Positions 29,495 through 64,000 of a DNA stretch of 64,000 nucleotides are shown here, piece after piece. The notes beneath the pieces were generated by a model. The model made no database searches. It worked only from the letters and a program-made list of their open reading frames with translations, and was not told where the DNA came from. A program made the position numbers and the translations under genes. Numbering within the stretch: the first letter of the stretch is position 1; every line of letters begins with the position of its first letter. Source of the stretch: Eutreptiella sp. 'Long Island Sound 2002' (taxonomy: Eukaryota; Euglenozoa; Euglenophyceae; Eutreptiales; Eutreptiaceae); assembly GCA_964036045.1 (NCBI GenBank), contig OZ038381.1, forward strand, positions 148,871,596 to 148,935,595. The letters run 5' to 3'.

Positions 29495-30067
29495 TGAGGG
29501 ACACCCCCTCTGGCCCCCCAGTGTAGTTGCCCTGCTCACCAGGGGTTCTTGGGTTGCACGGCCTGAGGTTGTGGGGACCCTCTTGGGGCTGGGGTCCGTC
29601 AGCGCTTCCCTGCCAGTGGCGGCGGCCATGCACAGCACAGATGTGCCTTGCCAGGGCCTGAGGCCAGGTGCAGTGCACCTGTGGACAGGTGGTCGGCTGG
29701 GCTCCAGGTCCCTGCACCCCTAATGCTCTGCTTCCGTTGGACTGCCAGCATCCGCCGCCACCATCGTCTCCGCCTGAATTTTCAGCTTCTGGCCCGAGGT
29801 CCCCAGCCAAGCTTCCATGAACCAGGATGCTCTGCCCAGTAGTCCATCAACTCATGTGCTCACATTTTCGTTGTGCTCACAGCAAGCATTCGTGAAGACG
29901 TAGTGCTGAAGCATGCTGTGCAGGTCGTTTTGCTGCACATGTCAATCGAGCGCTACGCTACAGTGCACCCCGCTTCGGATGTGTGCACAATGATCCGGGC
30001 AAACTGGGCCGCATTCTTTTCGCGGCAGATGCCGACAACGGTTATCTCCGAACCCTGTTTGTTGCAG
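29495..30067. other. Single-copy spacer between inverted satellite arrays
   Basis: Satellite sequence stops abruptly at about 29,494 and resumes on the opposite strand at about 30,068. The 573 bp between are unique within the window. No RNA gene is apparent. The right third (about 29,880-30,067) is open and coding-like on the plus strand and is listed separately; the left two thirds hold nothing I recognise. Confidence 0.85.
29878..30067 (+). other. Possible exon fragment at the spacer's right end
   Basis: From about 29,878 one plus frame stays open into the inverted satellite and has protein-like composition (for example VVLKHAVQVVLLHMSIERYA, then a stretch ending FSRQMPTTVISEPC). It follows a GTGCTCACAG acceptor-like sequence. 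The opposite strand is also open for part of this span, so the strand is not certain. No family is recognised. A weakly similar pattern (K-x-A-x4-V-x2-H) occurs in the exon-like segment at 31,728-31,868 on the far side of the inverted array, which could mean a duplicated gene piece. Confidence 0.25.
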
Positions 30068-31669
30068 GGCAGACGCATTGAGGCGGATGGGGAAGGGGCA
30101 GTGCTATGCACAGGGCACACGCATTGAGGCGGATGGGGATGGGGCAGTGCTATGCACAGGGCACACGCATTGAGGCGGATGGGGATGGGGCAGTGCTGTG
30201 CACAGGGCACACATATTGAGGCGGATGGGGATGGGGCAGTGCTGTGCACAGAGCACACGCATTGAGGCGGATGGGGATGGGGCAGTGCTATGCACAGAGC
30301 ACACACATTGAGGCGGATGGGAATGGGGCAGTGCTATGCACAGGACACACATATTGAGGCGGATGGGGATGGGGCGGTGCTGTACACAGGGCACACACAT
30401 TAAGGCGGATGGGGATGGGGCAGTGCTATGCACAGGGCACACGCATTGAGGCGGATGGGGATGGGGCAGTGCTGTGCACAGGGCACACATATTGAGGCGG
30501 ATGGGGATGGGGCAGTGCTGTGCACAGAGCACACGCATTGAGGCGGATGGGGAAGGGGCAGTGCTGTGCACAGGGCACACATATTGAGGCGGATGGGGAT
30601 GGGGCAGTGCTATGCACAGGGCACACGCATTGAGGCGGATGGGGATGGGGCAGTGCTGTGCACAGGGCACACACATTGAGGCGGATGGGGCTGGGGCAGT
30701 GCTTTGCACAGGGCCACGCATTGAGGCGGATGGGGATGGGGCAGTGCTATGCACAGGGCACACACATTGAGGCGGATGGGGCTGGGGCAGTGCTATGCAC
30801 AGGGCCACGCATTGAGGCGGATGGGGATGGGGCAGTGCTATGCACAGGGCACACACATTGAGGCGGATGGGGAAGGGGCAGTGCTGTGCACAGGGCACAC
30901 ACATTGAGGCGGATGGGGCTGGGGCAGTGCTATGCACAGGCAGACGCATTGAGGCGGATGGGGCTGGGGCAGTGCTATGCACAGGGCACACACATTGAGG
31001 CGGATGGGGATAGGGCAGTGCTGTGCACAGGGGACACGCATTGAGGCGGATGGGGATGGGGCAGTGCTATGCACAGGCAGACACATTGAGGCGGATGGGG
31101 AAGGGGCAGTGCTATGCACAGCGCACACACATTGAGGCGGATGGGGAAGGGGCAGTGCTATGGACAGGGCACACGCATTGAGGCGGATGGGGATGGGGCA
31201 GTGCTATGCACAGGCAGACGCATTGAGGCGGATGGGGAAGGGGCAGTGCTGTGCACAGGGCACACACATTGAGGCGGATGGGGAAGGGGCAGTGCTATGC
31301 ACAGAGCACACGCATTGAGGCGGATGGGGATGGGGCTGTGCTATGGACAGGGCACACACATTGAGGCGGATGGGGATGGGGCAGTGCTATGCACAGGCAG
31401 GCGCATTGAGGCGGATGGGGAAGGGGCAGTGCTGTGCACAGGGCACACACATTGAGGCGTATGGGGAAGGGGCAGTGCTATGCACAGAGCACACGCATTG
31501 AGGCGGATGGGGATGGGGCAGTGCTGTGCATAGGGCACACACATTGAGGCGGATGGGGATGGGGCAGTGCTATGCACAGGCAGACGCATTGAGGCGAATG
31601 GGGATGGGGCAGTGCTATGCACAGGGCACACATATTGAGGCGGATGGGGATGGTGCAGTGCTATGGACA
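30068..31669 (-). repeat. 46-bp satellite, inverted tandem array
   Basis: The same 46-bp satellite continues here as its reverse complement, about 35 units. Units are more heterogeneous than in the forward array: several have GCACAGGCAGACGCATTG in place of GCACAGGGCACACGCATTG or lack one or two bases, and GGGGAAGGGG is frequent. The array ends at about 31,669 in CTATGGACAC. It is too diverse to be a simple recent flip of the adjacent forward edge. Confidence 0.95.
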
Positions 31670-44882: not shown

Positions 44883-45770
44883 ACACACATATATATGGTA
44901 TATGCGAACTCTGCCCCCCCCCCCCCCCCGTCTGCACCCCCAGGGTCCGGAGGACCGGAGGACCCCAAAGGCCCCCAATATGCAAGAATATGCACATTTT
45001 ACACCGAATGCTACTCCGTTTACCCGTATACCCCTTCCGTTTACCCGTGGATCATAGGAATTGCGGTCTGTAGTCCGTAGACACTGTCTACCACACAAGG
45101 CGGTGCACACACCAGGCGGCGCACACACAAGGCGGTCTATGGCCACCGCAAGTGTCTTGTTATTTAAGGGGGGTGCGGGGGCTGGCCCCTGCATCGAGCG
45201 CAGCGAGCCGTGGCGTGGTAAGGGTTGGCAGTGCACACACAAGGCGGTGTATACACAAGGCGGTGCACACACAAGGCGGTGTACACAGAAGGCGGTTTGT
45301 AGCCACCGCAGGTGTTTTGTTGTTGAAGGGGGGTGCGGGGGCTTGCCCCCGCGTCGAGCGTAGCAAGCCGTAGCGTGGGAGGGATTCGTGGTGCGCACAC
45401 AAGGCGGTGCATACATGTGCACACCCGTGCACACGGGCATAGTGGTTTGTAGGGTGTAGACGCAGTTTGCCCTCGGTAGACGCGGTCTGCCCTAGGTAGA
45501 CACTGTCTGCTGCGGGTCAACGCAGAGTACCAATATTTTGGGGAAGGGGGACGAAGCGGGGGGGGGGGGGGGTTATACGGGTAAATTCTACGGGTAAACG
45601 GAGTGGCATTCAGTGTAAAATGTGCATATTCTTGCATATTGGGGGCCTCTGGACCCACATGGGGCGCTACGCGCCCATTCCGCGGGGTCCTCTAGACCCC
45701 TAGGGGGGGTGTAGACAGGGGGGGGGGAAGAGCTCGCATAAGCCACACACACACACACACACATATATGT
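44883..45770. mobile_element. Element D, inverted-repeat element of about 0.9 kb
   Basis: The left end (ATATATATGGTATATGCGAA, a C run, then GGCCCCCAATATGCAAGAAT at about 44,970) is mirrored on the right: GGGTAAACGGAGTGGCATTC at 45,592-45,611, CTTGCATATTGGGGGCC at 45,631-45,647, a G run, then a GCATAAGCC block before a CA microsatellite. The best-conserved inverted segment is about 60 bp (44,970-45,029 against 45,589-45,647) with only a few mismatches. The centre holds two copies of a 160-bp sequence and no convincing gene, so it is probably a non-autonomous element. Confidence 0.65.
45123..45400 (+). repeat. Two 160-bp direct repeats inside element D
   Basis: Copies begin near 45,123 and 45,281. 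Each has an ACACAAGGCGGT or ACAGAAGGCGGT lead, GCCACCGCA, a TTGTT block, GGGGGGTGCGGGGGCT and a GAGCGNAGCNAGCCGTNGCGTGG block. The second contains GCGGGGGC-TT-GCCCCCGC, an 8-bp-stem hairpin at about 45,337-45,354. ACACAAGGCGGT recurs several times between and after the copies. Confidence 0.75.
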
Positions 45771-46452: not shown

Positions 46453-49400
46453 AATTTCTGATTCTTGGCCCCGCGCTGAGCGTTGGAGACCCCGAAGACG
46501 GCAGGGGTGATGGAGCCACTTTGCCCACATGTGTGCCACGTAGCCGTTTCCAGGTTTTGTCCCCGCGCTAAGCGTTGCGGACCCCAAGACAGCGTTGGGG
46601 ACCCCCAAGATAGCAGGGGTGATGTAGCCACTTTGCCCACATGTGGGCAACATAGCCATTTCTGATTTTTGTCCTCGCGCTAGGCGTTGGGGACCCCCAA
46701 GACGGCAGGGGTGATGTAGCCACTTTGCCCACATGTCGGCCACGTAGCCATTTCTGATTTTTGGCCCCGCGCGAAGCGTTGGGAATCCCCGAGATGGTAG
46801 GGGTGATGGAGGCACTTTGCCCACATGTGACCCACGTAGCCGTTTCTACGTTTTGTCCCCGCGCTAAGCGTTGCGGACCCCAAGACACCGTTGGGGACCC
46901 CAAGATAGCAGGGGTGATGTAGCCACTTTGCCCACATGTGGGCAACATAGCCATTTCTGATTTTTGTCCTCGCGCTGAGCGTTGGAGACCCCCAAGACGG
47001 CAGGGGTGATGTAGCCACTTGGCCCACATGTGGGCCACGTAGCCATTTCCAATATTTGTCCCATCGCCGAGCATTGGGCACCCCAGAAGACGGTGGTGAT
47101 GACCCCGCGCTAAGCGTTGGGGACCCGCAAGATGACAGGGGTGATGTAGCCACCTTGCCCCGCTGTGAGCCACATAGCCATTTCTTATTTTTGTCCTCGC
47201 GCTGGGCGTTGGGGACCTCTAAGACGGTAGGGGTGATGTAGCCACTTTGCCCCCATGTGGGCCACATAGCTATTTCTGATTTTTGTCCCCCCGCTAAGCA
47301 TTGGAGACCCCCAAGACGGTAGGGGTGACCGAGCCACTTTGCCCACATGTGACCCACGTAGCCATTTCTGCGTTTTTTCCCCGCGCTAAGCGTTGCGGAC
47401 CCCAAGACAGCGTTGGGGACCCCCCAGATTGCAGGGGTGATGTAGCCACTTTGCCCACCTGTGGGCAACATGGCCTTTTCTGATTTTTGGCCCCGCGCGA
47501 AGCGTTGGGGATCCCCAAGATGGCGGGGGTGATGGAGCCACTTTGCCCACATGTGACCCACGTAGCCGTTTCTAGGTTTTGTCCCCGCGCTAAGTGTTGC
47601 GGACCCCAAGACAGCGTTGGGGACCCCCAAGATGCCAAGGGTGATGTACCCACTTTGCCCACATGTGGGCCACGTCGCTATTTCTCATTTTTGTCCCCGT
47701 GCTGGGCGTTGGGCACCTCCAAGAGGGCAGGGGTGACGTAGCCACTTTGCCCACATGTGGGGCACGCCTCCATGTCCAATATTTGTCACCCCGCTGAGCA
47801 TTGGGCACCCCAGAAGACGGTGGTGATGACCCCGCGCTAAGCGTTGGGGACCCGCAAGATGACAGGGGTGATGTGGCCACTTTGCCCCCATGTGAGCCAC
47901 ATCGCCATTTTTGATTTTTGTCCTCGCGCTGGGCGTTGGGGACACCTAAGACGGCAGGGGTGATGTAGCCACTTTGCCCACATGCGGGCCACTTAGCTAT
48001 TTCTGATTTTTGTCCCCGCGCTAAGCGTTCGGGATCCCCAAGACGGCGGTGGTGATGGAGCCACTTTGCCCACATGTGACCCACGTAGCCTTTTCTAAGT
48101 TTTGTCCCCTGGCTAAGCGTTGCGGACCCCAAGACAGCGGTGGGGACCTCCAAAATGACATGGGTGATGTAGCCACCTTACCCCCATGTGAGCCACTTCG
48201 CCATTTCTGATTTTTGTCCCCCCGCTGAGCGTTGGGGATCCCCAAGACGGTAGCGGTGATGGAGCCACTTTGCCCACATGTGACCCACGTAGCCCTTTCT
48301 ATGTTTTGTCCCCGCGCTAAGCGTTGCGGGCCCCAAGACAGCGTTGGGGACCCCAAAGATAGCAGGGGTGATGTAGCCACTTTGCCCACATGTGGGCAAC
48401 ATAGCCATTTCTGACTTTTTTTCCTCGGTCTTAGCGTTGGAGACCCCCAAGACGGCAGGGGTGATGTAGCCACTTTGCCCACATGTGGGCCACGTAGCCA
48501 TTTCTGATTTTTGTCCTCGCGCTGAGCGTTGGAGATCCCCAAGACGGCAGGGGTGATCGGGCCACTTTGCCCACATGTGACCCACGTTGCCGTTTCTAGG
48601 ATTTGTCCCCGGGCTAAGAGTTGCGGACCCCAAGACAGCGTTGGGGACCCCCAAGATAGCAAGGGTGATGTAGCCAATTTGCCCACATGTGGGCAACATA
48701 GCCATTTTTGATTTTTGTCCCCGCGCTGAGCGTTGGAGATCCCCAAGACGGCAGGGGTGATGTAGCCACTTTGCCCACATGTGGCCAACATAGCCATTTC
48801 TGATTTTTGTCCTCGCGCTGAGCGTTGGAGACGCCGAAGACGGCAGGGGTGATGCAGCCATCTTGCCCACATGTGACCCACGTAGCCGTTTCTAGGTTTT
48901 GTCCCCGCGCTAAGCGTTGCGGACCCCAAGACAGCGTTGGGGACCCCCAAGACGGCAAGGGTGATGTAGCCACTTTGTCCACATGTGGGCCACCTAGCCA
49001 TTTCTGATTTTTTGCCCCGGGCTAAGCGTTGGAGATCCCCAAGATAGCAGGGGTGATGTAGCCACTTTGCCCACATGTGGCCAACATAGCCATTTCTGAT
49101 TTTTGTCCTCGCGCTGGGCGTTGGGGACCCCCAAGACGGCAGGGGTGATGTAGCCACTTTGCCCACATGTGACCCACGTAGCCGTTTCTAGGTTTTGTTC
49201 CCGCGCTAAGAGTTGCGGACCCCAAGACAGCGTTGGGGACCCCTAAGATAGCAAGGGTGATGTAGCTACTTTGCCCACATGTGGGCCACGTAGCCATTTT
49301 GATTTTTGTCCTCGCGCTAAGCGTTGGGGATCCCCAAGATGGGAGGGGTGATGGAGCCACTTTGCCCACATGTGACCCACGTAGCCAAATCTGCTTTTTG

Positions 49401-49498
49401 TCCCCGTGCGGAGCGTTGGGGACCCCCAAGACGGCAGGGCTGATGTCTTTGCTCTGAGCGCCGGGGACCACCAAGACGTTAGCGGTGGTGTAGCCACT
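46453..49498 (+). repeat. Family-2 satellite, left part
   Basis: Tandem modules of two sizes. The about 92-bp module reads (T)TTTTGTCCTCGCGCTGAGC, GTTGGAGACCCCCAAGACGG, CAGGGGTGATGTAGCC, ACTTTGCCCACATGTGGGCC, then ACGTAGCCATTTCTGA. The about 112-bp module has an extra 20 bp that partly duplicates the GCGTTGCGGACCCCAAGACA block. The two often alternate, giving 204- and 296-bp higher-order spacing. Each module contains a perfect palindrome GCCCACATGTGGGC and an imperfect one TTGGGGAC-CCCCAA. Open frames of up to 381 codons on the minus strand reflect module lengths and lack of stops, and are not treated as genes. Confidence 0.93.
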
Positions 49499-49506
49499 TT
49501 GCCCAC
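49499..49506. repeat. Target-site duplication, left copy (TTGCCCAC)
   Basis: The 8 bp TTGCCCAC immediately precede the CACGGGGGG terminus. The identical 8 bp follow the other terminus at 55,871-55,878. In uninterrupted satellite units the octamer occurs once and is followed by ATGTGGGCC. Confidence 0.85.
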
Positions 49507-49548
49507 CACGGGGGGGGCGCCGGGACCGGACCCTTTACGCCGACTCCC
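49507..49548 (+). repeat. Left terminal inverted repeat of the 6.36-kb element
   Basis: CACGGGGGGGGCGCCGGG starts the element and ACGCCGACTCCC closes the repeat. It pairs with 55,834-55,870; the middle differs by several bases and the left copy is 5 bp longer. Confidence 0.75.
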
Positions 49549-49569
49549 CCCCCTCCCCCCCTCCCTGGA

Positions 49570-49585
49570 AATTGGCTGGAAAGTG
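49570..49585 (+). repeat. Subterminal direct repeat, left (16 bp)
   Basis: AATTGGCTGGAAAGTG here recurs exactly at 55,815-55,830 in the same orientation, although the flanking terminal repeats are inverted. Confidence 0.85.
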
Positions 49586-49772
49586 CCGCACCATGGGCGC
49601 CGAAGGCGCCCTAAGCAAATTTTGATTGAGTTAGTAGAGGGTGAAAAAATGGGTTTCCGCCCCATGTGTCTATACTCAAAATGCTCAGTTTTTTTAGGAG
49701 AACCCAATAGTGGATCAAAACCAAATTGGGCAAAATATGAATACCACCCCTGTGCAGAAGTATGTCAGATCT

Positions 49773-49841
49773 GGGCCATACCCTAGTGGTAAAGCAGTGC
49801 CTCTGCAATTGGAGGTCCCTCGTTCAAACACCAGTGGGGGC
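49773..49841 (+). tRNA. tRNA-Cys(GCA)-derived fragment
   Basis: Three blocks resemble eukaryotic tRNA-Cys: a D-arm block AGTGGTAAAGCA, an anticodon loop CTGCAAT (anticodon GCA), and GGAGGTCCCTCGTTCAAAC, which covers the variable region and box B. The anticodon stem has mismatches (TGCCT against TGGAG), the T stem is weak and the acceptor stem pairs poorly. It is therefore a tRNA pseudogene or the head of a tRNA-derived SINE. A T-rich stretch at 49,887-49,918 could be its tail. It could still act as an internal Pol III promoter. Confidence 0.6.
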
Positions 49842-49917
49842 AATGTGCAGGGCTGTAGGTAGGATCAGGTACACCATGGGACAGTTTTTATTTTTGCTTT
49901 CTTTGCTTTTTTTTTGC

Positions 49918-52562
49918 TTTGACTTTGTCCCCTTTGTTGGGGATCCCCCAGAATGCAAGGTTGATGTAGCATTTCTGCCCACTTGTGGGCCTCCCAGAAG
50001 GCAAGGGTTAGGCATCCAATTCTGATTTTGTCCCCCTTTCTTTGGGGATCCCCGAGAATGCAGGGGTGATGTAGCATTTCCGCCCACTTGTGGGCCTCCC
50101 AAAAGGCACGGGTTAGGCATCCAATTCTGATTTTGTTCCCCTTTCATTGGGGACCCCCGAGAATGCAGGGGTGATGTAGCATTTCCGCCCACTTGTGGGC
50201 CCACTTTGATTTTGTCCCCTTTGTTGGGGACCCCCGAGAATGCAGGGGTGATGTAGCATTTCTGCCCACTTGTGGGCCCCACCAATTCTGATTTTGTCCC
50301 CATTTCTTTGGGGATCCCCGAGAATGCAGGGGTGATGTAGCATTTCCGCCCACTTGTGGGCCTCCCAAAAGGCACGGGTTAGGCATCCAATTCTGACTTT
50401 GTCCCCCTTTCATTGGGGATCCCCTAGAATGCAGGGGTGATGTAGCATTTGCGCCCACTTGTGGGCCCACTTTGATTTTGTCCCCTTTGTTGGGTACCCC
50501 CGAGAATGCAGGGGTGATGTAGCATTTCTGCCCACTTGTGGGCCCCACCAATTGTGATTTTGTCCCGATTTCTTTGGGGACCCCCGAGAATGCAGGGGTG
50601 ATGTAGCATTTCCGCCCACTTGTGGGCCTCCCAAAAGGCACGGGTCAGGCATCCAATTCTGATTTTGTCCCCCTTTCATTGGGGATCCCCGAGAATGCAG
50701 GGGTGATGTAGCATTTCCGCCCACTTTGATTTTGTCCCCTTTGTTGGGGACCCCCGAGAATGCAGGGGTGATGTAGCATTTCCGCCCACTTGTGGGCCCC
50801 ACCAATTCTGATTTTGTCCCCCCTCTCTTTGGGGATCCCCTAGAATGCAGGGGTGATGTAGCATTTTTGCCCACTTGTGGGCCCCGCCAATTCTGATTTT
50901 GTCCCCATTTCATTGGGGACCCCCGAGAATGCAGGGGTGATGTAGCATTTCCGTCCACTTGTGGGCCCCGCCAATTCTGATTTTGTCCCCATTTCATTGG
51001 GGACCCCCGAGAATGCAGGGGTGATGTAGCATTTCCGCCCACTTGTGGGCCCACTTTGATTTTGTCCCCTTTGTTGGGGACCCCCGAGAATGCAGGGGTG
51101 ATGTAGCATTTCTGCCCACTTGTGGGCCCCACCAATTCTGATTTTGTCCCCATTTCTTTGGGGACCCCCGAGAATGCAGGGGTGATGTAGCATTTCCGCC
51201 CACTAGTGGGCCTCCCAAAAGGCAGGGGTTAGGCATCCAATTCTCATTTTGTCCCCCTTTCATTGGGGATCCCCGAGAATGCAGGGGTGATGTAGCATTT
51301 TTGCCCACTTGTGGGCCCCGCCAATTCTGATTTTGTCCCCATTTCATTGGGGACCCCCGAGAATGCAGGGGTGATGTAGCATTTCCGCCCACTTGTGGGC
51401 CCACTTTGATTTTGTCCCCTTTGTTGGGGACCCCCGAGAATGCAGGGGTGATGTAGCATTTCTGCCCACTTGTGGGCCCCACCAATTCTGATTTTGTCCC
51501 CATTTCTTTGGGGACCCCCGAGAATGCAGGGTTGATGTAGCATTTCCGCCCACTAGTGGGCCTCCCAAAAGGCACGGGTTAGGCATCCAATTCTCATTTT
51601 GTCCCCCTTTCATTGGGGATCCCCGAGAATGCAGGGGTGATGTAGCATTTCCGCCCACTTGTGGGCCCATTTTGATTTTGTCCCCTTTGTTGGGGACCCC
51701 CGAGAATGCAGGGGTGATGTAGCATTTCGGCCCACTTGTGGGCCCCACCAATTCTGATTTTGTCCCCCCTCTCTTTGGGGTTCCCCGAGAATGCAGGGGT
51801 GATGTAGCATTTTTGCCCACTTGTGGGCTTCCCAAAAGGCACGGGTTAGGCATCCAATTCTGATTTTGTCCCCCTTTCATTGGGGATCCCCGAGAATGCA
51901 GGGGTGATGTAGCATTTCCGCCCACTTGTGGGCCCACTTTGATTTTGTCCCCTTTGTTGGGGACCCCCAAGAATGCAGGGGTGATGTAGCATTTCTGCCC
52001 ACTTGTGGGCCCCACCAATTCTGATTTTGTCCCCCCTCTCTTTGGGGTTCCCCGAGAATGCAGGGGTGATGTAGCATTTTTGCCCACTTGTGGGCCCCGC
52101 CAATTCTGATTTTGTCCCCATTTCATTGGGGACCGCCGAGAATGCAGGGGTGATGTAGCATTTCCGCCCACTTGTGGGCCCACTTTGATTTTGTCCCCTT
52201 TGTTGGGGACCCCCGAGAATGCAGGGGTGATGTAGCATTTCCGCCCACTTGTGGGCCCACTTTGATTTTGTCCCCTTTGTTGGGGACCCCCGAGAATGCA
52301 GGGGTGATGTAGCATTTCCGACCACTTGTGGGCCCCACCAATTCTGATTTTGTCCCCATTTCTTTGGGGACCCCGGAGAATGCAGGGGTGATGTAGCATT
52401 TCCGCCCACTTGTGGGCCCACTTTGATTTTGTCTCCTTTGTTGGGGACCCCCGAGACTGCAGGGGTGATGTAGCATTTTTGCCCCTTGTGGGCCCCGCCA
52501 ATTCTGATTTTGGGCACCCTAGAAGGTAGGGGCCATGCGACCAATTCTGTTTTTGTCCCTCT
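49918..52562 (+). repeat. Family-3 satellite inside the transposon
   Basis: About 30 tandem modules of about 77, 84 and 105 bp. All share GATTTTGTCCCC, a TTGGGGA(C/T)CCCC block, GAGAATGCAGGGGTGATGTAGCATTT and GCCCACTTGTGGGC. They differ in the linker: a short CACTTT form, a CACCAATTCT form, and a long form with CTCCCAAAAGGCACGGGTTAGGCATCC. The core is clearly homologous to family 2 (same CAGGGGTGATGTAGC, same order of the two dyads). The last modules (after about 52,490) are degenerate. Confidence 0.93.
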
Positions 52563-52625
52563 TCCACTCCTGAACAAGCCATTAATGCATATTGCCATGC
52601 TTGCTACCTTGCTCTTTAGCGCGCA

Positions 52626-54110
52626 ATGGCATATGTATTAAGAAATCGGCCACAACGAGTCCCTTCGGCAAGGATGACACCCTATTGTAATACACTTGCA
52701 TGCAAGTCGGAGGTGGTGCACTCTTTTGTCAACCATGATCTTCGGGCTTTTGGAGCAAATGGTGCTTGCCACGGTCTTTGTGGACACCCAACGGCAGTTT
52801 CTGGGTTGTGTGGTTGTACGCCACAACAATGCGGTTGCGGGCATCACTTCAACGACATTGTAGCTGCCGCGGAGCGGCGGCAACACTTTGAATTGTCCAA
52901 GAAGCACAAAACTTGGATAACTCCTACTGCCCCAGTTCAATCACTACCCAAAGCCGGGCCTATGGATCGCTTCGTCAATGTCTTCTCCCCCGAGCCGCCT
53001 TCGGAGGACACCCCAATGTTGTGCCCTGCGCCGCCGCCACCTGCCACATCCATTCCCGCCAATCTTGACATGCCCTCTGAGGCCGGACCCGAACACATGT
53101 ACAAATGCAGTGGGACTCTACTCGGGCGAGCTCGTGGTTGGCTCATAGCCAACTACCCCCACCTTCGTTACGCGGAACGTCATCTTCACCGATGGAGGCG
53201 TGACATGGAGTGCTTGGAGCATGTGGACTGTTCGGGCAAGGCTGAGGAGGAGGGAGGTCAATACAACAAATGCGCGGAGCTTGAGGATTGGAAGCCATTG
53301 TTTCGGATGCTGGAGGTTTCGTCATCACCGAAGCCGCGCACCCCAATGCAGCATCGCGGCATGCAGGCAATGTGCAACGCCCTTGAGGAACAACGTGAAG
53401 CACGGGGAAAGGAGTTCATGAGAGTTCGGAACCTCCAACGGCAAATGGCACCTCTCTGGGAACGTGTTTCTTTGTACGAACGTTTGGTTGACGCCGTTGC
53501 CAGCCGGGATGTGCAACGCATTGCTTCCATTATCCACACAGCACGCCGTCGGGGTTTTGGGCTCAAGCGGATGGTGGGACTCCTTGAGGATGCAGCACGG
53601 GCAAACCGGACACGGTACACAGAGCGAGAGTGTGCAACGGCGGTCTTATTATATGGACTGGCGAGGGCTGAACGAGAACTCGGCATAGTTTTTGAAGTGA
53701 AGGAGGGATTTGGGTTGTTCTCCCCGCATGGGACCATCCTTGAAGTGGACAACAAGGATTTGCAAGAGGAGGACCGCATCGATTCCGACGAGGATGACGA
53801 GGATTCGGATGAGAGTTCTGTAGAAGGAGCAGATGAAGCCGAACAAGCTTTTCCGGAGACATCCGCCATCGCGTACAACGGCGCCATTGTTGGCAAACAA
53901 CATGTCTTGAACGACTTGATCAACAATTCCTTAGGGAAGTTAGGCCACGACCGGTTGGCTGCCGCCCTCAGCCAACCGCGGCCCAGTCACGTTCTTGATG
54001 TTCCCACGCAGGCACATTGTGAAAACATGCCAATTGCTGGGGACCTCGTGGCCAGGCAATGTGCTACGGTACCGTCATCTCTCTGGCCATCTTGTATGTG
54101 CGAACGGTGA
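52626..54110 (+). CDS. Cys/His-rich acidic protein of the transposon (5' frame)
   Basis: A 494-codon frame begins at ATG 52,626, 64 bp beyond the family-3 array. Residues 48-74 are a dense Cys/His cluster (C48, H49, C52, H54, C62, C64, C69, C71, H73, H74), likely zinc-binding. Residues about 98-155 are Pro-rich. Residues about 235-355 are basic and helical, including RRRGFGLKRMVGLLEDAARA and YTERECATAVLLYGLARAER. Residues about 374-410 are strongly acidic (DSDEDDEDSDESS). The basic helical block followed by YTERE recalls, from memory, uncharacterised proteins expanded in mushroom-forming fungi; I have not verified this. No DDE-type catalytic motif is seen. It overlaps the next frame by 52 bp in a different phase, so the two are probably exons of one gene. 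The last residues here may then be intronic. Confidence 0.65.
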   Translation: MAYVLRNRPQRVPSARMTPYCNTLACKSEVVHSFVNHDLRAFGANGACHGLCGHPTAVSGLCGCTPQQCGCGHHFNDIVAAAERRQHFELSKKHKTWITPTAPVQSLPKAGPMDRFVNVFSPEPPSEDTPMLCPAPPPPATSIPANLDMPSEAGPEHMYKCSGTLLGRARGWLIANYPHLRYAERHLHRWRRDMECLEHVDCSGKAEEEGGQYNKCAELEDWKPLFRMLEVSSSPKPRTPMQHRGMQAMCNALEEQREARGKEFMRVRNLQRQMAPLWERVSLYERLVDAVASRDVQRIASIIHTARRRGFGLKRMVGLLEDAARANRTRYTERECATAVLLYGLARAERELGIVFEVKEGFGLFSPHGTILEVDNKDLQEEDRIDSDEDDEDSDESSVEGADEAEQAFPETSAIAYNGAIVGKQHVLNDLINNSLGKLGHDRLAAALSQPRPSHVLDVPTQAHCENMPIAGDLVARQCATVPSSLWPSCMCER

Positions 54111-55291
54111 CGGACGCTAGTGGCCGCCCAGCTATGGACCATAGCTACGACGTCATTGAGTCGTCAAACAACCTCATCGTCCACGGCCAACTAATGCCAT
54201 TTGAGCATTGCCCGGGCCCCGATTTGCATGTTTGGAATGGCATGCTGAATCCCCGGATTGTGCAAGTGCGCAGCGAGCATTGCCAATTTGTGACCCTTGA
54301 CAGCAACGTGGAGAATAGGTGGTACCAACAAACCGGCACTTTGAAGGCATTGGCGGAGTGGTGCATTCATTGTGCTCCCTCTGTAGTGCCCACTGTTCCA
54401 AGGGATCCCTATCCCTGCATGCCCACTGCCCCTACTAATGATAAGGTGGCATCAGAAAGTGGCCCGAACAGTGTGAGTTGCCAGATTTGCCAAGAGAACG
54501 TGCCACATCGAGTGCCGCGCACGCACATTGGGCAACACATTCTACGTGGTCACCACGTTGAAGGACAGGCGGCCCGGTCATGCGCCAATATTTCTGGTTT
54601 TTGTGGAGCACGGGATGAGTGCACAATCCGCTTGCCGTTGCAATCCCGGTCTACACGGAATCGCATGGTGGTGGCGGTCAGCTCTTGCCCATCGCAGCCA
54701 TCGCCAATCTCTTGGGTCCGAATGTCAACGGCAAGCAAGGCCAACCCTTGCATCAACCGACCAGTGAATTGCCCCCAATGCACAACCACGGTTTGGTTGT
54801 ACAGTATGGCCGCCCATTTTGCCGCCCTCCATCCCAACGATCCCATTCCACATGGCCTTCGTGTCACCGAGGAGGAGGAAGCATCCGTTCGCGGATGGAA
54901 CGTTGGTGCCCTCAAGAACGGGCCGAAGAGGCAAAAAGTGGCTGGTGATACACCCACTCCTTCCATCACACCTTTCACCACCGCCAACAACAATAGCTCC
55001 TCTTCCTCCTCGTCCTCGTCCTCGTCGTCGTCCTCCTCCTCCTCCTCCACTACAACTCCCCCGATGCCACCAACAACATCTCACACTCCACCCTTGCCAC
55101 CCTCTGAATCGGAGGCCACTGCAGAGGGGGGTTGTCGGACACGCCCATTGAAGTCCACCGGGAAGCGGGCAAGAGACAAGAAGCGCCTTGACGCACTCCT
55201 CGAGGCCAAAAAGCAGAGGGCCCGGGAAGCAACCGATTCGTCTAGTGACGACGAGGACTACTTTGATCATCCGGTGGACAAGCGCTCTTAG
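54059..55291 (+). CDS. Zinc-finger protein of the transposon (3' frame)
   Basis: A 410-codon open frame; the true coding start is probably not the first ATG but near 54,132, after a splice. It has two finger-like motifs, C141-x2-C144-x11-H156-x3-H160 and C238-x2-C241-x11-H253-x4-H258 (CPQCTTTVWLYSMAAHFAAL). Between them are further cysteines (C175, C182, C188, C210, C231). The C-terminal third is low-complexity: a serine run of about 18-20 near residue 313, Thr/Pro-rich sequence, basic nuclear-signal-like patches (KNGPKRQKV, GKRARDKKR) and an acidic tail (SSSDDEDYFD). This suggests a nuclear nucleic-acid-binding protein. The finger pair with a CPxC...W.Y.M..H block resembles a family I associate with agaricomycete fungi (recall only). 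It lies inside the transposon in the same orientation as the first frame. Confidence 0.65.
   Translation: MCYGTVISLAILYVRTVTDASGRPAMDHSYDVIESSNNLIVHGQLMPFEHCPGPDLHVWNGMLNPRIVQVRSEHCQFVTLDSNVENRWYQQTGTLKALAEWCIHCAPSVVPTVPRDPYPCMPTAPTNDKVASESGPNSVSCQICQENVPHRVPRTHIGQHILRGHHVEGQAARSCANISGFCGARDECTIRLPLQSRSTRNRMVVAVSSCPSQPSPISWVRMSTASKANPCINRPVNCPQCTTTVWLYSMAAHFAALHPNDPIPHGLRVTEEEEASVRGWNVGALKNGPKRQKVAGDTPTPSITPFTTANNNSSSSSSSSSSSSSSSSSSTTTPPMPPTTSHTPPLPPSESEATAEGGCRTRPLKSTGKRARDKKRLDALLEAKKQRAREATDSSSDDEDYFDHPVDKRS
54061..54131 (+). other. Candidate intron joining the two transposon frames
   Basis: A GT at 54,061 and an AG ending CCGCCCAG at 54,131 bound 71 bp. Removing them shifts the phase by exactly the amount needed to pass from the first frame to the second (71 is 2 modulo 3), giving ...ARQ-S-MDHSYDV. 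Other GT/AG pairs tested nearby (52, 60, 63, 73 and 84 bp) do not restore the frame. A frameshift mutation or programmed frameshift are alternatives. Confidence 0.35.
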
Positions 55292-55833
55292 CGCCCCTTC
55301 CATCACCTTCCTCAACTCCACCACTCCAATCACCCATTTTTTGAGGCCCCAAGGAGCAGAACCCCATGACGGGCACGCAGAGTGTTGGTGCACATGATGT
55401 ACAACCGGTGTGCGGGCATAGTACGTGCACACGTTGTGGGCACGTAGTGCGCGGAGAGAACTTTTTTTTTAAAAAAAACGTATTGCGCGCGTTGCAAACC
55501 CTTCCCCCCCTCTCCTCCAAAGGGTTTCGAAACATACATCAACTCCTTCTTCACACCACGCATGGTTCGGCCCGGGTGGGGCGCCACTGGCAACAGTGGC
55601 CGGGAATTGACTCGGGTGTGCTATGCCCTTAAACACAAGTACCACCTACCATGCCCCCCCCCCCCTCTTGCAGTTTTTTTTTGCCAACATACATACCGCA
55701 AAAATGTCTACCGCGATGAGGGGGTCATTTTAAGCCATATATGTTGGGGTCCGGGTGGCCCCCTCCCCTTCAGCCGGCCCCAGACCCCCCCCGACCCCCC
55801 CCCCCCCGCCCCGTAATTGGCTGGAAAGTGGGA
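55292..55833 (+). other. 3' region of the transposon gene and subterminal DNA
   Basis: After the stop at 55,289-55,291 there is no long conserved frame. Notable items are a T9/A8 block at about 55,462-55,478, a CCCCCCCCCCTCTTGCAG acceptor-like tract ending at about 55,671, and a C-rich stretch at 55,785-55,810 just inside the right terminus. A further small exon is possible but not supported. Confidence 0.4.
55815..55830 (+). repeat. Subterminal direct repeat, right (16 bp)
   Basis: AATTGGCTGGAAAGTG, identical and in the same orientation as 49,570-49,585. Confidence 0.85.
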
Positions 55834-55870
55834 GGGAGTCGGCGTATGGCCCGTTTCTACGCCCCCCGTG
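55834..55870 (-). repeat. Right terminal inverted repeat of the 6.36-kb element
   Basis: GGGAGTCGGCGT at the inner side and CGCCCCCCGTG at the outer side are the inverted counterpart of 49,507-49,548. Confidence 0.75.
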
Positions 55871-55878
55871 TTGCCCAC
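55871..55878. repeat. Target-site duplication, right copy (TTGCCCAC)
   Basis: This octamer directly follows CCCCCCGTG and runs on into ATGTGGGCCACGTAGCC, the second half of the interrupted family-2 unit. Confidence 0.85.
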
Positions 55879-58800
55879 ATGTGGGCCACGTAGCCATTTC
55901 TGATTTTTGTCCCCCCCAAGACGGCAGGGGTGATGTCCCTGCTCTGAACGTTGGGGACCACCAAGACTTTAGGGGTGATGCAGCCACTTTGCCCACATGT
56001 GGGCCGCGCAGACATTCCTTTTTGTCCCCGCGCTTGGCAATGTGGACCCCCAAGACGGCAGGGGTGATGTAGCCATTTTGCCCACATGTGGGCCACGTAG
56101 CAATTTCTGATTTCTGTCCCCACACTGGGCGTTCGGGACCCCCAAGACGGCAGAGGTGATGAAGCCATTTTGCCCACATGTGGGCCACATAGCTATTTCT
56201 GATTTTTGTCCCGCGCTAAGCGTTGTGGATCCCCAAGACGGCAGGGGTGATGTAGCCACTTTGCCCACATGTGACCCACGTAGCCGTTTCTAGGTTTTGT
56301 CCCCGCGCTAAGCGTTGCGGAGCCCAAGACGGCGTTGGGGACCTCCAAGATGACAGGGGTAATGTAGCCACCTTACCCCCACGTGAGCCACATCGCCATA
56401 TCTGATTTTTGTCCCCGCGCTGGGCGTTGGGGACCCCCAAAACGGTAGGGGTAATATTGCCACTTTGCCCACATGTGGGCCACATAGCCAATCCTGTGTT
56501 CGGGCCCCGCGCTGGGCGTTGGGGATCCCCAAGACGGCAGGGCTGATGTAGCCACTTTGCCACATGTGGGCCACATAGCTATTTCTGATTTTTGTCCTCC
56601 CGCTAAGCATTGGGGATCCCCAAGACGGTAGGGGTGATGGAGCCACTTTGGACACATGTGACCCACGTAGCCGTTTCTAGGTTTTGTCCCCGCGCTAAGC
56701 GTTGCAGACCTCAAGACAGCGTTGGGGACCCCCAAGATTGCAGGGGTGATGTAGCCACTTTGCCCACATGTGGGCAACATAGCCATTTCTGATTTTTGTC
56801 CCCGCGCCGAGGGTTGGAGACCCCCAAGACGGCAGGGGTGATGTAGCCACTTTGCCCACATGAGGGCCACGTAGCCATTTCGAATTTTTGTCCTCGCGCT
56901 GAGCGTTGGAGACCCCCAAGACGGCAGGGGTGATGTAGTCACTTTGCCCACATGTGGGCCACATCGCAAATTCTGATTTTTGTCCCCACGCTGGGTGTTG
57001 GGGACCCCCAAAGACGGCAGGGGTAATGTTGCCACTTTGCCCACATGTGGGCCACATAGCCATTTCTGATTATTGGCCCCGCTCTGGGCGTTGGGGACCC
57101 CCAAGACGGCAGGGGTGATGTAGCCACTTTGCCCACATGTGGGCCACATAGCTATTTCTGATTTTTGTCCCACCGCTAAGCGTTGGGGTTCCCCAAGACG
57201 GCAGGGGTGATGGAGCCACTTTGCCCACATGTGACCCACGTAGCCGTTTCTAGGCCCGTGCTAAGCGTTGCGGACCCCAAGACAGCGTTGGGGACCCCCA
57301 CGATAGCAAGGGTGATATAGCCACTTTGCCCACATGTGGGCCATGTAGCCATTTCTGATTTTTGGCCTCGCGCTGAGCGTTGGAGACCCCCAAGACGGCA
57401 GGGGTGATGGAGCCACTTTGCCCACATGTGGGCCACATAGCCATTTCTGATTATTGGCCCCGCGCTGGGCGTTGGGGACCCCCAAGACGGCAGGGGTGAT
57501 GTAGCCATTTTGCCCACATGTGACCCACGTAGCCGTTTCTAGGCTTTGTCCCCGTGCTAAGCGTTGTGGACCCCAAGACAGCGTTGGGGACCCCCAAGAT
57601 AGCAGGGGTGATGTAGCCACGTTGCCCACATGTGGGCAACATAGCCATTTCTGATTTTTGTCCTCGCGCGGAGCGTTGGAGACCCCCAAGACGGTAGGGA
57701 TGATGGAGCCACTTTGCCCACATGTGACCCACGTAGCCGTTTCGAGGTTTTGTCCCCGCCCTAAGCGTTGCGGACCCCAAGACAGCGTTGGGGACCCCCA
57801 AGACGGCAGGGCTGATGTAGCCACTTTGTCCACGTGTGGGCCACCTAGCCATTTCTGATTTTTTGCCCCGGGCTAAGCGTTGGAGATCCCCAAGATGGCA
57901 GGGGTGATGTAGCCACTTTGCCCACATGTGGCCAACATAGCCATTTCTGATTTTTGTCCTCGCGCTGAGCGTTGGGGACCCCCAAGACGGCAGGGGTGAT
58001 GTAGCCACTTTGCCCACATGTGACCCACGTAGCCGTTTGGAGGTTTTGTCCCCGCGCTAAGCGTTGCGGACCCAAAGACAAAGTTGGGGACCCCCAAGAC
58101 GGCAGGGGTGATGTAGCCACTTTGTCCACATTTGGGCCACCTAGCCATTTCTGATTTTTGGTTCCGGGCTAAGCGTTGGAGATCCCCAAGATGGCAGGGG
58201 TGATGTAGCCACTTTGCCCACATGTGGCCAACATAGCCATTTCTGATTTTTGTCCTCGCGCTGAGCTTTGGAGACCCCCAAGACGGCAGGGGTGATGGGG
58301 CCACTTTGCCCACATGTGACCCACGTAGCCGTTTCTAGGTTTTGTCCTCGTGCTAAGCGTTGCGGACCCCAAGACAGCGTTGGGGACCCCCAAGATAGCA
58401 GGGGTGATGTAGCCACGTTGCCCACATGTGACCCACGTAGCCGTTTCTAGGTTTTGTCCCCGCGCTAAGCATTGCGGACCCCAAGACAGCGTTGGGGACC
58501 CCCAAGACGGGAGGGGTGATATAGCCACTTTGCCCACATGTGGGCCACCGAGCCATTTCTGATTTTTGGCCCCGGGCTAAGCGTTGGAGATCCCCAAGAT
58601 GGCAGGGGTGATGTAGCCACTTTGCCCACATGTGGCCAACATAGCCATCTCTGATTTTTGTCCTCGCGCTGGGCGTTGGGGACCCCCAAGACGGCAGGGG
58701 TGATGTAGCCACTTTGCCCACATGTGACCCACGTAGCCGTTTCTAGGTTTTGTCCCCGCGCTAAGAGGTGCGGACCCCAAGACAACGTTGGGGACCTCCA

Positions 58801-59031
58801 AGATGGCACGGGTGATGTAGCTACTTTGCACACATGTGGGCCACGTAGCCATTTCTGATTTTTATCCTCGCGCTAAGCGTTGGGGATCCCCAAGATGGGA
58901 GGGGTGATGGAGCCACTTTGCCCACATGTGACCCACGTAACCAAATCCGCTTTTGGTCTCCGTGCTGAGCGTTGGGGACCCCCAAGAAGGCAGGGCTGAT
59001 GTCCCTGCTCTGAGCGCTGCGGACCACCAAG

Positions 59032-59100
59032 ACGTTAGGGGTGATGTAGCCACTTTGCCCACATGTGGGCCACATAGCCATTTCTGATTTTTGTCCCCCC
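59032..59100 (+). repeat. Paralogous uninterrupted copy of the transposon target site
   Basis: GACGTTAGGGGTGATG, then TAGCCACTTTGCCCACATGT, then GGGCCACATAGCCATTTC and TTTTTGTCCCCCCC matches the left flank (ending at 49,506) joined directly to the right flank (from 55,879). It carries a single TTGCCCAC (59,055-59,062). Confidence 0.8.
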
Positions 59101-60639
59101 CAAGACGGCAGGGGTGATGGGGACCACGAAGACGTTAGGGGTGATGCAGCCACTTTGCCCACATGTGGGCCGCGCAGACATTGCTTTTTGTCCCCGCGCT
59201 TGGCGATGAGGACCCCCAAGACGGCAGGGGTGATGTAGCCATTTTGCCCACATGTGGGCCACGTAGCAATTTCTGATTTCCGTCCCCACACTGGGCGTTT
59301 GGGACCCTCAAGACGGCAGAGGTGATGTAGCCATTTTGCCCACATGTGGGCCACATAGCTATTTCTGATTTTTGTCCCCGCGCTAAGCGTTGGGGATCCC
59401 CAAGACGGCAGTGGTGATGGAGTCACGTAGCCGTTTCTAGGTTTTGTCCCCGCGCTGAGCGTTGCGGAGCCCAAGACAGCGTTGGGGACCTCCAAGATGA
59501 CAGGGGTAATGGAGCCACCTTACCCCCACGTGAGCCACATCGCCATATCTGATTTTTGTCCCCGCGCTGGGCGTAGGGGACCCCCAAGACGGTAGGGGTA
59601 ATGTTGCCACTTTGGCTACATGTGGGCCACATAGCCATTTCTGTTTTGTGGCCCCGCGCTGGGCGTTGGGGATCCCCAAGACGGCAGGGGTGATGTAGCC
59701 ACTTTGCCCACATGTTCGCCACATAGCTCTTTCTTATTTTTGTCCCCCCTCTAAGCATTGGGGATCCCCAAGACGGCAGGGGTGATGGAGCCACTTTGCC
59801 CACATGTGACCCACGTAGCCGTTTCTAGGGTTTGTCCCCGCGCTAAGCGTTGCAGACCTCAAGACAGCGTTGGGGACCCCCAAAATAGCAGGGGTGATGT
59901 AGCCACTTTGCCCACATGTGGGCAACATAGCCATTTCTGATTTTTGTCCCCGCGCTGAGCGTTGGAGACCCCCCAGACGGCAGGGGTGATGTAGCCACTT
60001 TGCCCACATGAGGGCCACGTAGCCATTTCTGATTTTTGTCGTCGCGCTGAGCGTTGGAGATCCCCAAGACGGCAGGGGTGATGGAGCCACTTTGCCCACA
60101 TGTGACCCGAGTAGCCGTTTCTAGGTTTTGTCCCCGCACTAAGCGTTGCGGACCCCAAGACAGCGTTCTGGACCCCCAAGACGGCAGGGGTGATGTACCC
60201 ACTTTGTCCACATGTGGGCCACCTAGCCATTTCTGATTGTCCTCGCGCTGGGCGTTGGGGACCCCCAAGACGGCAGGGGTGATGTAGCCACTTTGCCCTC
60301 ATGTGACCCCTGTAGCCGTTTCTAAGTTTTGTCCCCGCGCTAAGAGTTGCGGACTACAAGACAGCGTTGGGGACCCCTAAGATAGCAAGGGTGATGTACC
60401 TACTTTGCCAACATGTGGGCCACGTAGCCATTTCTGATTTTTGTCCTCGCGTTAAGCGTTGGGGATCCCCAAGATGGGAGGGGTGATGGAGCCACTTTGC
60501 CCACATGTGACCCACGTAGCCAAATCTACTTTTTGTCCCCGTGCTGAGCGTTGGGGACCCCCAAGACGGCAGGGATGATGTCCCTGCTTTGAGCGCTGGG
60601 GACCACCAAGACATTAGGGGTGATGTAGCCACTTTGCCC

Positions 60640-62230
60640 ACATGTGGGCCGCGCAGACATTGCTGATTTTTGTCCCCGCGGTTGGCGATGGGGACCCCCA
60701 AGACGGCAGGGGTGATGTAGCCATTTTCCCCACATGTGGGCCACGTAGCAATTTCTGATTTCTGACCCCACACTCCGCGTTGGGGACCCCCAACACAGCA
60801 GAGATCATGTTGGCCACGTGGCCATTTCCAATTTTTGTCCCCGTGCTGGGCGTTGGGCACCCCCAAGAGGGCAGGGGTGACGTAGCCACTTTGCCCACAT
60901 GTGGGCCACGCAGCCATTTCCAAAATTTGTCCCCGCGAACAGCATTGGGCGCCCCAGAAGGCGGTAGCGGTGATGACCCCGCGCTAAGCGTTGGGGACCC
61001 GCAAATTGAGTGATGTAGCCTCCTTGCCCCAATGTGAGCCACATCGCCATTTCTTATTTTTGTCCTCGCGCTGGGCGTTGGGGACCCCTAAGACGGCAGG
61101 GGTGATTTAGCTAGTTTGCCCACATGTGGGCCACATAGCTATTTCTGATTTTTGTCCCCCCGCTAAGCATTGAGGATCCCCAAGACGGCAGGGGTGATGG
61201 AGCCACTTTCCCCACATGTGACCCACGTAGCCGTTTCTAGGTTTTGTCCCCGCGCTAAGCGTTGCAGACCTCAAGACAGCGTTGGGGACCCCCAAGATAG
61301 CAGGGGATATGTAGCCACTTTGCCCACATGAGGGCGACATAGCCATTTCTAATTTTTGTCCTCGCGCTGAGCGTTGCGGACCCCCAAGATAGCAGGGGTG
61401 ATGTAGCCACTTTGCCCGCATGTGGGCCACATCGCCATTTCTGATTTTTGTCCCCACAATGGGCGTTGGGGACCCCAAAGACGGCACGGGTAATGTTGCC
61501 ACCTCTCCAAAAGTTGGGCCACCTAGCCATTTCTGATTTTTGGCCCCGCGCTGGGCGTTGGGGACCCCCAAGACGGCAGGGGTGATGTAGCCACTTTGCC
61601 CACATGTGGGCCACATAGGTATTTCTGATTTTTGTCCCCGCGCTAAGCGTTGGAGACCCCCAAGATGGGAGGGCGTGATGGGGCCACTTTGCCCACATTT
61701 GGGCCACGTAGACGATTCTAGGTTTTGTCCCCGCGCTAAGCGTTGCGGACCACCAAGACGTTAGGGGTGATGTAGCCACTTTGCCCACATGTGGGCCCGG
61801 CAGACATTGCTGATTTTTGTCCCCGCGCTTGGCGATGGGGACCCCGAAATTGGCAGCGGTGATGTAGCCATTTTGCCCACATGTGGGCCACGTAGCAATT
61901 TCTGATTTCTGTCCCCACACTCCGCGTTGGGGACCTCCAAGACAACAGAGATGATGTAGCCACTTTGTCCACATGTGGGCCACGTGGCCATTTCCAATTT
62001 TTGTCCCCGTGCTGGGCGTTGGGCACCCCCAAGAGGGCAGGGGTGACGTAGCCACTTTGCCCACATGTGGGCCACGCAGCCATTTCCAAAATTTGTCCCC
62101 GCGAACAGCATTGGGCGCCCCAGAAGACGGTAGCGGTGATGACCCCGCGCTAAGCGTTGGGGACCCGCAAATTGAGTGATGTAGCCACCTTGCCCAAATG
62201 TGAGCCACATCGCCATTTCTTATTTTTGTC
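60640..62230 (+). repeat. Family-2 higher-order duplication, period about 1,166 bp
   Basis: The block at about 60,690-61,050 is repeated at about 61,860-62,216. It includes GGGCACCCCCAAGAGGGCAG, the GCGAACAGCATTGGGCGCCC module and a GACCCGCAAATTGAGTGATG deletion junction. Frames ending at 61,013 and 62,179 differ by 1,166 bp. Confidence 0.75.
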
Positions 62231-64000
62231 CTCGCGCTGGGCGTTTGGGACCTCTAAGGCGGCAGGGGTGATGTAGCCAGTTTGCCCACATCTGGGCCAC
62301 ATAGCTATTTCTGATTTTTGTCCCCGCGCTAAGTGTTGGAGATCCCAAAGACGGCAGTGGTGATGGAGCCACTTTGCCCACATGTGACCAACCAAGCCGT
62401 TTCTAGGTTTTGTCCCCGCGCTAAGCGTTGCGGACCCCAAGACAGCGTTGGGAACCCCCAAGATAGCAGGGGTGATGTAGCCACTTTGCCCACATGTGCG
62501 CCACATAGCCCTTTCTGATTTTTGTCCTCGCGCGGAGCGTTGCAGACCCCCAAGACGGCAGGGGTGATGTAGCCACTTTGCCCACATGTGACCCACGCAG
62601 CCGTTTCTAGGTTTTGTCCCCGCACTAAGCGTTGCGGACCCTAAGACAGCGTCGGGGACCCCCAAGATAGCAGGGATGATGTAGCCCCTTTGCCCACATG
62701 CGGGCAACATAGCCATTTCTGATTTTTGTCCTCGCGCTGGGCGTTGGTGACCCCCAAGACGGTAGGGGTGATGTAGCCCCTTGGCCCACATGTGGGCCAC
62801 GTAGCCATTTATGATTTTTGTCCTCGCGCTGAGGGTTGGAGACCCCCAAGACGGCAGGGGTGATGGAGCCACTTTGCCCACATGTGACCCACATAGCCGT
62901 TTCTCTGTTTTGTCCCCGCGCTAAGCGTTGCGGACCCCAAGACAGCGTTGGGGACCCCCAAGACGGCAGGGGTGATGTAGCCACTTCGCCCACATGTGGG
63001 CCACCTAGCCATTTCTGATTTTTGGGCCCGCACTAAGCGTTGGGCATCCCCAAGATGGCAGGGGTGATGGAGCCACTTTGCCCACATGTGACCCACATAG
63101 CCGTTTCTAGGTTTTGTCCCCGTGCTAAGCGTTGCGGACCCCAAGACAGCGTTGGGGACCCCCAAGATGCCAGGGGTGACGTAGCCACTTTGCCCACATG
63201 TGGGCCACACAAACATTTCCAATATTTGTTACCACGCGGAGCATCGGGCACCCCAGAAGACGGTAGGGGTCATGACCCCGCGCTAAGCGTTGGGGACCCG
63301 CAAGATGACAGGGGTGACTTAGCCACCTTGCCCCCATGTGAGCCACATCGCCATTTCTGATTTTTTGTGCTCGCGCTGGGCGTTGGGGACCCCCAAGACG
63401 GCAGGCGTGATGTAGCCACTTTGCCCACATGTGGGCCACATAGCTATTTCTGATTTTTGTTGCCGCTCTAAGCTTTCGGGATCCCCAAGACGGCAGTGGT
63501 GATGGAGCCACTTTGCCCACATGTAACCCACGTAGCCTTTGCTAGTTTTGTCCCCGCGCTAAGCGTTTCCGACGCCAAGACATCGTTGGGGACCTCCAAG
63601 ATGACAGGCGTGATGTACCCACCCTACTTGCGTGTGAGCTGCATCGCCATTTCTGATTTTTGTCCCCGCGCTGGGCGTTGGGGACCCCCAAGACGGCAGG
63701 GGTGGTGTGGCCACTTTGCCCTCATGTGGGCCACATAGCTCTTTCTTATTTTCGTCACCCCGCTAAGCGTTGGGGATCCCCAAGACGGTAGGGGTGAACT
63801 AGCCACTTTGCCCACATGTGACCCACGTAGCCGTTTCTAGGTTTTGTCCCCGCGCTAAGCGTTGCGGACCGCAAGACAGCGTTGGGGACCCCCAAGATAG
63901 CAGGGGTGCTGTACCCACTTTGCCCACATGTGGGCCACGTAGCCATTTCTGATTTTTGGCCCCGCGCGAAGCATTTGGGATCCCCAAGACGACAGGGGTG

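Follow-up and report, generated by a model that had tools for sequence, protein, structure and literature searches.

The 64,000-bp stretch analysed here (the window; positions 148,871,596 to 148,935,595 of contig OZ038381.1 from the euglenophyte Eutreptiella sp. 'Long Island Sound 2002') contains a 6,364-bp element that lies within a tandemly repeated satellite and that carries a tandem array of its own together with the remains of a gene. We argue, with a probability of about 0.85, that this element (49507-55870) is a non-autonomous, internally deleted copy belonging to a high-copy family of cut-and-paste DNA transposons. The features of the locus, in window coordinates and with the strand in brackets where there is one, are as follows.

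46454-49498 (+): host satellite on the left side of the element, with units mostly 92 and 112 bp apart and homology to the internal array
49499-49506: left 8-bp target site duplication (TSD), TTGCCCAC, exact repeat
49507-55870 (+): transposon, non-autonomous copy, 6,364 bp, with ends common to 18 further copies
49507-49548 (+): left terminal repeat, CACGGGGGG ... ACGCCGACTCCC
49570-49585 (+): subterminal direct repeat AATTGGCTGGAAAGTG, left copy
49920-52512 (+): tandem array inside the element, made of about 30 units that are mostly 77, 84 and 105 bp apart; 26 CCCAC..GTGGG dyads were counted in it
52626-54062 (+): open reading frame 1 (ORF1), predicted to encode the N-terminal and middle regions of the transposase, whose core is deleted
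53652-53657 (+): in-frame deletion junction, LLY joined to GLARAERELGI, where the homologue P0002 holds 459 extra residues
54053-54067 (+): disruption that puts ORF1 and ORF2 out of frame; P0001, L030 and L034 have an unbroken frame here
54065-55291 (+): ORF2, predicted to encode the C-terminal region of the transposase, with Cys/His motifs and a stop at the end
55815-55830 (+): subterminal direct repeat AATTGGCTGGAAAGTG, right copy
55831-55870 (-): right terminal repeat, with CCCCCCGTG at its end and ACGCCGACTCCC in inverted orientation at 55834-55845
55871-55878: right 8-bp TSD, TTGCCCAC, exact repeat
55879-64000 (+): host satellite right of the insertion, reaching the window end
58943-59164 (+): empty-site paralogue, with TTGCCCAC at 59055-59062

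A reading made earlier from the sequence only had proposed a complete transposon-like element with an 8-bp target duplication, and the duplication is indeed exact at 49499-49506 and 55871-55878. Both copies of TTGCCCAC adjoin the termini of the element, with CACGGGGGG starting at 49507 and CCCCCCGTG ending at 55870, and the direct repeat around the element is exactly 8 bp, since lengths of 5-7 and 9-11 fail. Inside these limits, ACGCCGACTCCC is found at 49537-49548 on the forward strand and at 55834-55845 on the reverse strand (two matches; 100 shuffles averaged 0.11, and 2 of them likewise reached two matches), and the AATTGGCTGGAAAGTG repeat near both ends is direct, not inverted. Note that the window contains TTGCCCAC 85 times (81 copies are in the outer satellite and 4 within the element), so that the duplication by itself proves nothing. 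The similarity of the terminal inverted repeats (TIRs) is not decisive in this copy either, since, owing to C-runs, 19 of 2000 randomly drawn segment pairs do as well. Given the frequent TTGCCCAC and these unremarkable, C-rich TIRs of one copy, the window alone could not settle whether a transposon is present at all, and both facts would suit the alternative that the flanking match is a coincidence of the satellite.

That alternative is contradicted by evidence of two kinds. When the flanks were joined (240 bp), they aligned without interruption to 58943-59164 as their top-scoring place (86.7% identity, 18 gap positions, 301 bits), compared with 220 bits for the next-best place, the flanks themselves excepted; the empty-site paralogue that had been proposed is thus present, with its own TTGCCCAC at 59055-59062. 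(Taken alone, the left flank is slightly nearer to 60484-60633, at 93.3%, than to 58905-59054, at 92.0%; the stretch nearest to the right flank is the one at 59063.) The second kind of evidence comes from the rest of the 2.28-Gb host genome, in which the window lies on contig C4. Searching with the right 130 bp of the element yielded 1188 first-look candidates, and the 40 that were scored proved to be 88-100% identical to the query; the right end of the element is a high-copy family in the host genome. We fetched the 20 copies that ranked next after the window's own (extra flanks were taken for seven) and located both ends in 18 of them. All 18 start with CACGGG and end with CCCCCCGTG, and each is flanked by an 8-bp duplication, exact in 16 and with 7 of 8 bases in two (L012 and L015), which bears out the expectation that other copies would end at the same termini. 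L026 and L027 have the same duplication and the same flanks; with these two counted as a single insertion, there are 17 distinct insertions. In a control in which the right flank was shifted by 1-30 bases, at least 7 matches were reached at 8 of 884 offsets (15 elements were covered, one of them lying in a GT repeat). Moreover, the duplications differ from insertion to insertion, which argues against a satellite coincidence. Because the joined flanks fit one empty site and the other copies share ends with different duplications, we regard the existence of a transposon as settled and reject the satellite coincidence, to which we give practically no chance.

The 18 other copies of this family (family 1) are 537-5,380 bp long, compared with 6,364 bp for the window copy. 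A match to the left terminus in an independent copy was also found in the protein P0001, residues 226-245 of which match it (85% of 20 residues, E 7.5e-7); beyond the terminal GTG, one of two residues matches. Copy L021, seen over its left 600 bp and its right flank, sits in degenerate DNA related to the window's satellite, and L017 is accompanied by a stray CACGGGGGGCTCGCC left-end fragment some 155 bp left of the element, adjoining the telomere-like repeat CCTAACCCTAACCC. The left arm of the window element holds a tRNA-like stretch with an A-box and a B-box (TAGTGGTAAAGC ... GTTCAAAC, about 49773-49842), which is also present in the aligned rows of L009 and L028 and, in a variant form, of L020. 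ARAGORN predicted no tRNA either here or elsewhere in the window, nor in 13 loci, and Rfam scans of 32000-64000 and 49507-50000 gave matches only below the gathering scores. Elsewhere in the window lie a 46-bp satellite (about 641 copies, 1-29494), followed by a block of the 46-bp unit in the opposite orientation at 30065-31669, and a two-copy 160-bp tandem repeat rich in ACACAAGGCGGTGC at 45093-45415.

We used the read-through of ORF1 and ORF2, which overlap (ORF1 running from 52626 and ORF2 to 55291), as a query for homologues and retrieved P0001 and P0002; P0002 as query gave P0003-P0005. P0002 is located in the host genome at C24:31293883-31295559 (100%). The window frame was compared with P0002 and P0003: between 'VVLY' and 'GWARAERKLGI', P0002 carries 459 residues, whereas the window goes straight from LLY to GLARAERELGI. 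On this comparison the core of the predicted transposase is lost from the window copy, and a single frame disruption near 54060 further separates ORF1 from ORF2. The lack of an obvious DDE transposase, which the sequence-only reading had remarked on, is therefore explained: no transposase was recognised because the window copy lacks about 460 core codons, in frame, and carries one frame disruption. The same two lesions make it non-autonomous, so that the element can be called complete with respect to its two ends and not with respect to its gene. (The Cys/His motifs of ORF2 look like zinc fingers by eye; none gave a Pfam match above the cut-off.)

Relatives with longer genes were found by a translated search of the genome with P0002, which gave 81 matches (78 of 522 candidates were scored). 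Many of the matches have identities of 35-45%, and several lie in open frames of more than 1,000 residues. Two relatives, one copy each, were traced to both ends, and both have an 8-bp duplication. The family 2 element (L038, encoding P0006) is 6,175 bp long, with the TSD GGGCCAAT and CCCGGG at start and end; its open frame has 1,376 residues, 1,354 from the first Met. The family 3 element (L044, 782-6235, encoding P0007) is 5,454 bp long, with the TSD CAGCACCC and the termini CACGGGGGG..CCCCCCGTG; its open frame has 1,338 residues, 1,307 from the first Met. Common to the two is a plan of G/C-run TIRs, an upstream non-coding tandem array, a single predicted transposase of about 1,300-1,350 residues, and an 8-bp duplication. 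The family 3 element is inserted in a 64-bp tandem repeat. Another family 2 copy, L043, has a 1,369-residue open frame and begins within a 31-bp tandem repeat; no right end could be located in the stretch that was fetched.

An alignment of four divergent proteins (P0006, P0007, the L037 frame and P0002) has 126 invariant columns, 12 of which are D or E, including D425, D537, D539, D747 and E750 in P0006 numbering. D425, D537 and E750, with spacings of 112 and 213 (D-112-D-213-E), form a candidate catalytic triad, and the P0002 residues aligned with it (117, 228 and 441) all fall within the 459 absent from the window. Profile searches against transposase families, run at a limit of E 10, matched no Pfam transposase model to P0001-P0007, to the L037 frame or to the window ORFs (most weak matches are removed by the HMMER filters); in particular, the window ORFs and their relatives gave no THAP-domain or P-transposase match, no hAT transposase or hAT dimerisation match and no match to a KDZ (Kyakuja-Dileera-Zisupton) transposase. 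Pfam and NCBIfam scans of the window ORFs and of relatives yielded no credible family, sequence searches of the PDB no chain above noise for the profile, and scans of viral and prokaryote contigs nothing related. P0006 had no relative at E 1 among 7999 candidates scored; each protein homologue search scored only about 8000 candidates and is shallow for distant relatives, so that their absence is weak evidence.

The internal array had been listed among the non-standard features of the element. The array is real, and it is not peculiar to this copy. In the window copy, as in L009, L012, L014, L017 and L028, a distance of 448-556 bp separates the left end from the first counted unit, and the 18 other family 1 copies have 0-7 counted units compared with about 30 in the window. 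When aligned with the consensus of the surrounding satellite, the array unit is identical at 72 of 81 aligned positions, with 12 gap positions, and the local score of 81 compares with at most 21 in 200 shuffles. Array and satellite have the blocks GTTGGGGACCCCC, GCAGGGGTGATGTAGC and GCCCAC[A/T]TGTGGGC in common, and within each of the two, conservation is higher at the columns that they share. In fixed windows that include the flanking spacer, the two are 58% alike, and each is about 79-80% alike within itself. The units of nine family 1 copies nevertheless score higher against the window's internal array (mean best score 70-168) than against the satellite (44-73; 40 of 108 satellite units were sampled), which argues that the array was not acquired from the present insertion site. 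The internal array is therefore an inherent component of the family, and not something that the window copy alone picked up.

Family 2 has units of the internal-array kind upstream of its gene, and the CCCAC...GTGGG dyad is shared by the arrays of all three families. The internal array contains 26 dyads and the left satellite block 10; the family 2 array has 4 and the family 3 array 3, compared with none in the three coding stretches tested. Dinucleotide shuffles gave means of 0.07-0.33 and at most 2. By analogy with known elements, the array is a probable site of transposase binding, and the arrays probably share ancestry with the genome's larger satellites. The locus is a case in point for the question of how satellites originate: one genome holds a related unit both as a transposon array and as a long satellite, and the transposon with its short array is itself inserted in the long related satellite.

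Tandem repeats were not clearly preferred as targets, being hit by 4 of 16 tested insertions compared to 12 of 65 local control points (L043 was judged by its left side only, L026 and L027 counted as one insertion, and six copies completed later were not included). Thus, the landing in a satellite needs no special explanation. Base preferences were tabulated over 20 duplications, from 18 distinct family 1 insertions including the window's and from families 2 and 3. Complementarity within single duplications was not raised (14 of 80 pairs, shuffle mean 17.5). In a post hoc comparison, the TSD bases agreed weakly with GTCCGGAC, which we take to be the P-element target consensus, at 66 of 160 positions compared with a mean of 45 for its rearrangements; 4 of 1120 letter arrangements of GTCCGGAC, itself included, and 36 of 65536 8-mers fit the TSDs as well. 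A T at position 2 and an A at position 7, presumably hAT-like, would fit them too. Because the comparison was post hoc and hAT targets would look alike, the TSD preference does not decide the superfamily.

TIRs together with a target duplication of fixed length at many insertion sites place the element among the class II TIR transposons, a known kind of cut-and-paste DNA transposon; its lineage is not placed and may be undescribed, and its rank, a new superfamily or a divergent relative of P or hAT, is unproven from these comparisons. In the mechanism that we favour, a DDE-type enzyme would make an 8-bp staggered insertion by cut-and-paste, with D425, D537 and E750 forming an RNase-H-like active site, an insertion domain between the second D and the E, and the N- and C-terminal Cys/His motifs serving as DNA-binding zinc fingers. 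The window copy would be moved in trans by an intact transposase of its own or a sister family. The dyads of the upstream arrays would most likely act as extra binding sites for the Cys/His-rich ends of the transposase and aid assembly of the transposition complex; binding to internal repeats has been shown for Galileo (PMC3688188). Arrays of this sort can lengthen, with about 30 units in the window copy and 0-7 in the 18 others.

Several points weigh against this interpretation. No intact full-length copy of family 1 was found, the nearest relatives being fragments or having stops. Among the 20 copies that were fetched, two lack a clear end: the right terminus of L011 is broken and the left end of L024 was not found. 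That the window element itself has transposed is something we infer, and the catalytic triad is proposed from conservation alone. With respect to the arrays, the upstream unit of family 3 is repeated but different and was recognised by eye; the dyads of one array are copies of each other and represent few independent cases, and the motif was picked after it had been seen.

The alternative that we take most seriously, at a little short of even odds, is that the family is a divergent member of a known superfamily with 8-bp duplications (P or hAT, less probably KDZ) for which sequence profiles are too weak. It is favoured by the 8-bp duplications, by TSD bases that suit P or hAT, and by a D-112-D-213-E layout not far from the D230-D303-E531 of the P element, for which internally deleted copies are known (PMC7776569), as are binding sites in internal tandem repeats for Galileo (PMC3688188). 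It is disfavoured by the failure of the Pfam and PDB searches described above to find a transposase model or a chain beyond noise. The sequence-only suggestion of an undescribed element type is plausible as far as the absence of a Pfam transposase match goes, and the rank of the lineage is not decided by it. We think it unlikely that the lineage is already on record under another name, as it might be among the fungal or protist transposons of Repbase: what speaks for it is that the C-terminal CGFCG...CTNRP..CP.C motif resembles proteins of mushroom-forming fungi, whereas literature searches (titles and the starts of abstracts) gave no fitting element and the shallow P0006 search no relative.

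It is similarly improbable that the array is a captured host satellite with no role in transposition. The homology of its unit to the flanking satellite, the related degenerate arrays beside L021 and the want of any counted unit in 2 of the 18 other family 1 copies (L018 and L020) would fit capture. However, the family 1 units are of their own type, all three families have an array upstream of the gene, and the different unit of family 3 still keeps the CCCAC...GTGGG dyad. A more far-reaching scenario, which we offer as speculation and consider distinctly doubtful, is that of an undescribed eukaryotic DDE superfamily that expanded in one 2.3-Gb genome, whose upstream dyad arrays are bound by its own zinc-finger transposase and seeded large satellite blocks that then became landing sites and decoy binding sites.

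The non-autonomous cut-and-paste transposon that we favour can be set beside several known systems. Like the P superfamily, it has TIRs and 8-bp duplications, and internally deleted copies are described for the P element and zebrafish P-like elements (PMC7776569); in Galileo, a member of that superfamily, transposase-binding sites lie within internal tandem repeats (PMC3688188). Unlike that superfamily, its proteins have no THAP-domain or P-transposase profile match, and here they comprise about 1,300-1,350 residues with N- and C-terminal Cys/His motifs, with a one-sided array upstream of the gene. DDE transposases of hAT elements have a long insertion between the second D and the E, as has the candidate DDE transposase here; the 8-bp duplications are a further likeness, whereas no hAT dimerisation or other hAT model matches. 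For hAT elements, duplications are usually 8 bp; in KDZ elements, Zisupton-1_PGr of the Dileera lineage has 8-bp duplications, and Kyakuja has CA..TG termini, 7-bp duplications and, as that account has it, no TIRs (PMC12730594). The 8 bp found here fits the 7- or 8-bp duplications of KDZ and the CA..TG termini recall Kyakuja, from which our element differs by its TIRs and 8 bp; no KDZ model matches. The CMCT group (EnSpm/CACTA, Plavaka and others) makes 2-5 bp duplications (PMC12730594), in contrast to 8 bp in the three families here, and resembles only families 1 and 3 in its CA..TG ends (CAC..GTG), family 2 being CCCGGG..CCCGGG.

With regard to the array, the nearest parallels lie elsewhere. 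VANDAL elements carry repeated non-coding motifs that are recognised by the element-encoded VANC, an anti-silencing protein (PMC5735166); an anti-silencing role is possible for our array by analogy, and no second gene was seen in the element. Tetris, a foldback transposon of Drosophila virilis with 8-9 bp duplications in complete copies, likewise has internal tandem repeats related to larger satellite arrays, and differs in that its repeats lie inside long TIRs and in that it has no conserved open reading frames (PMC4079207). Its authors argue that the internal repeats of the element seeded a satellite (PMC4079207).

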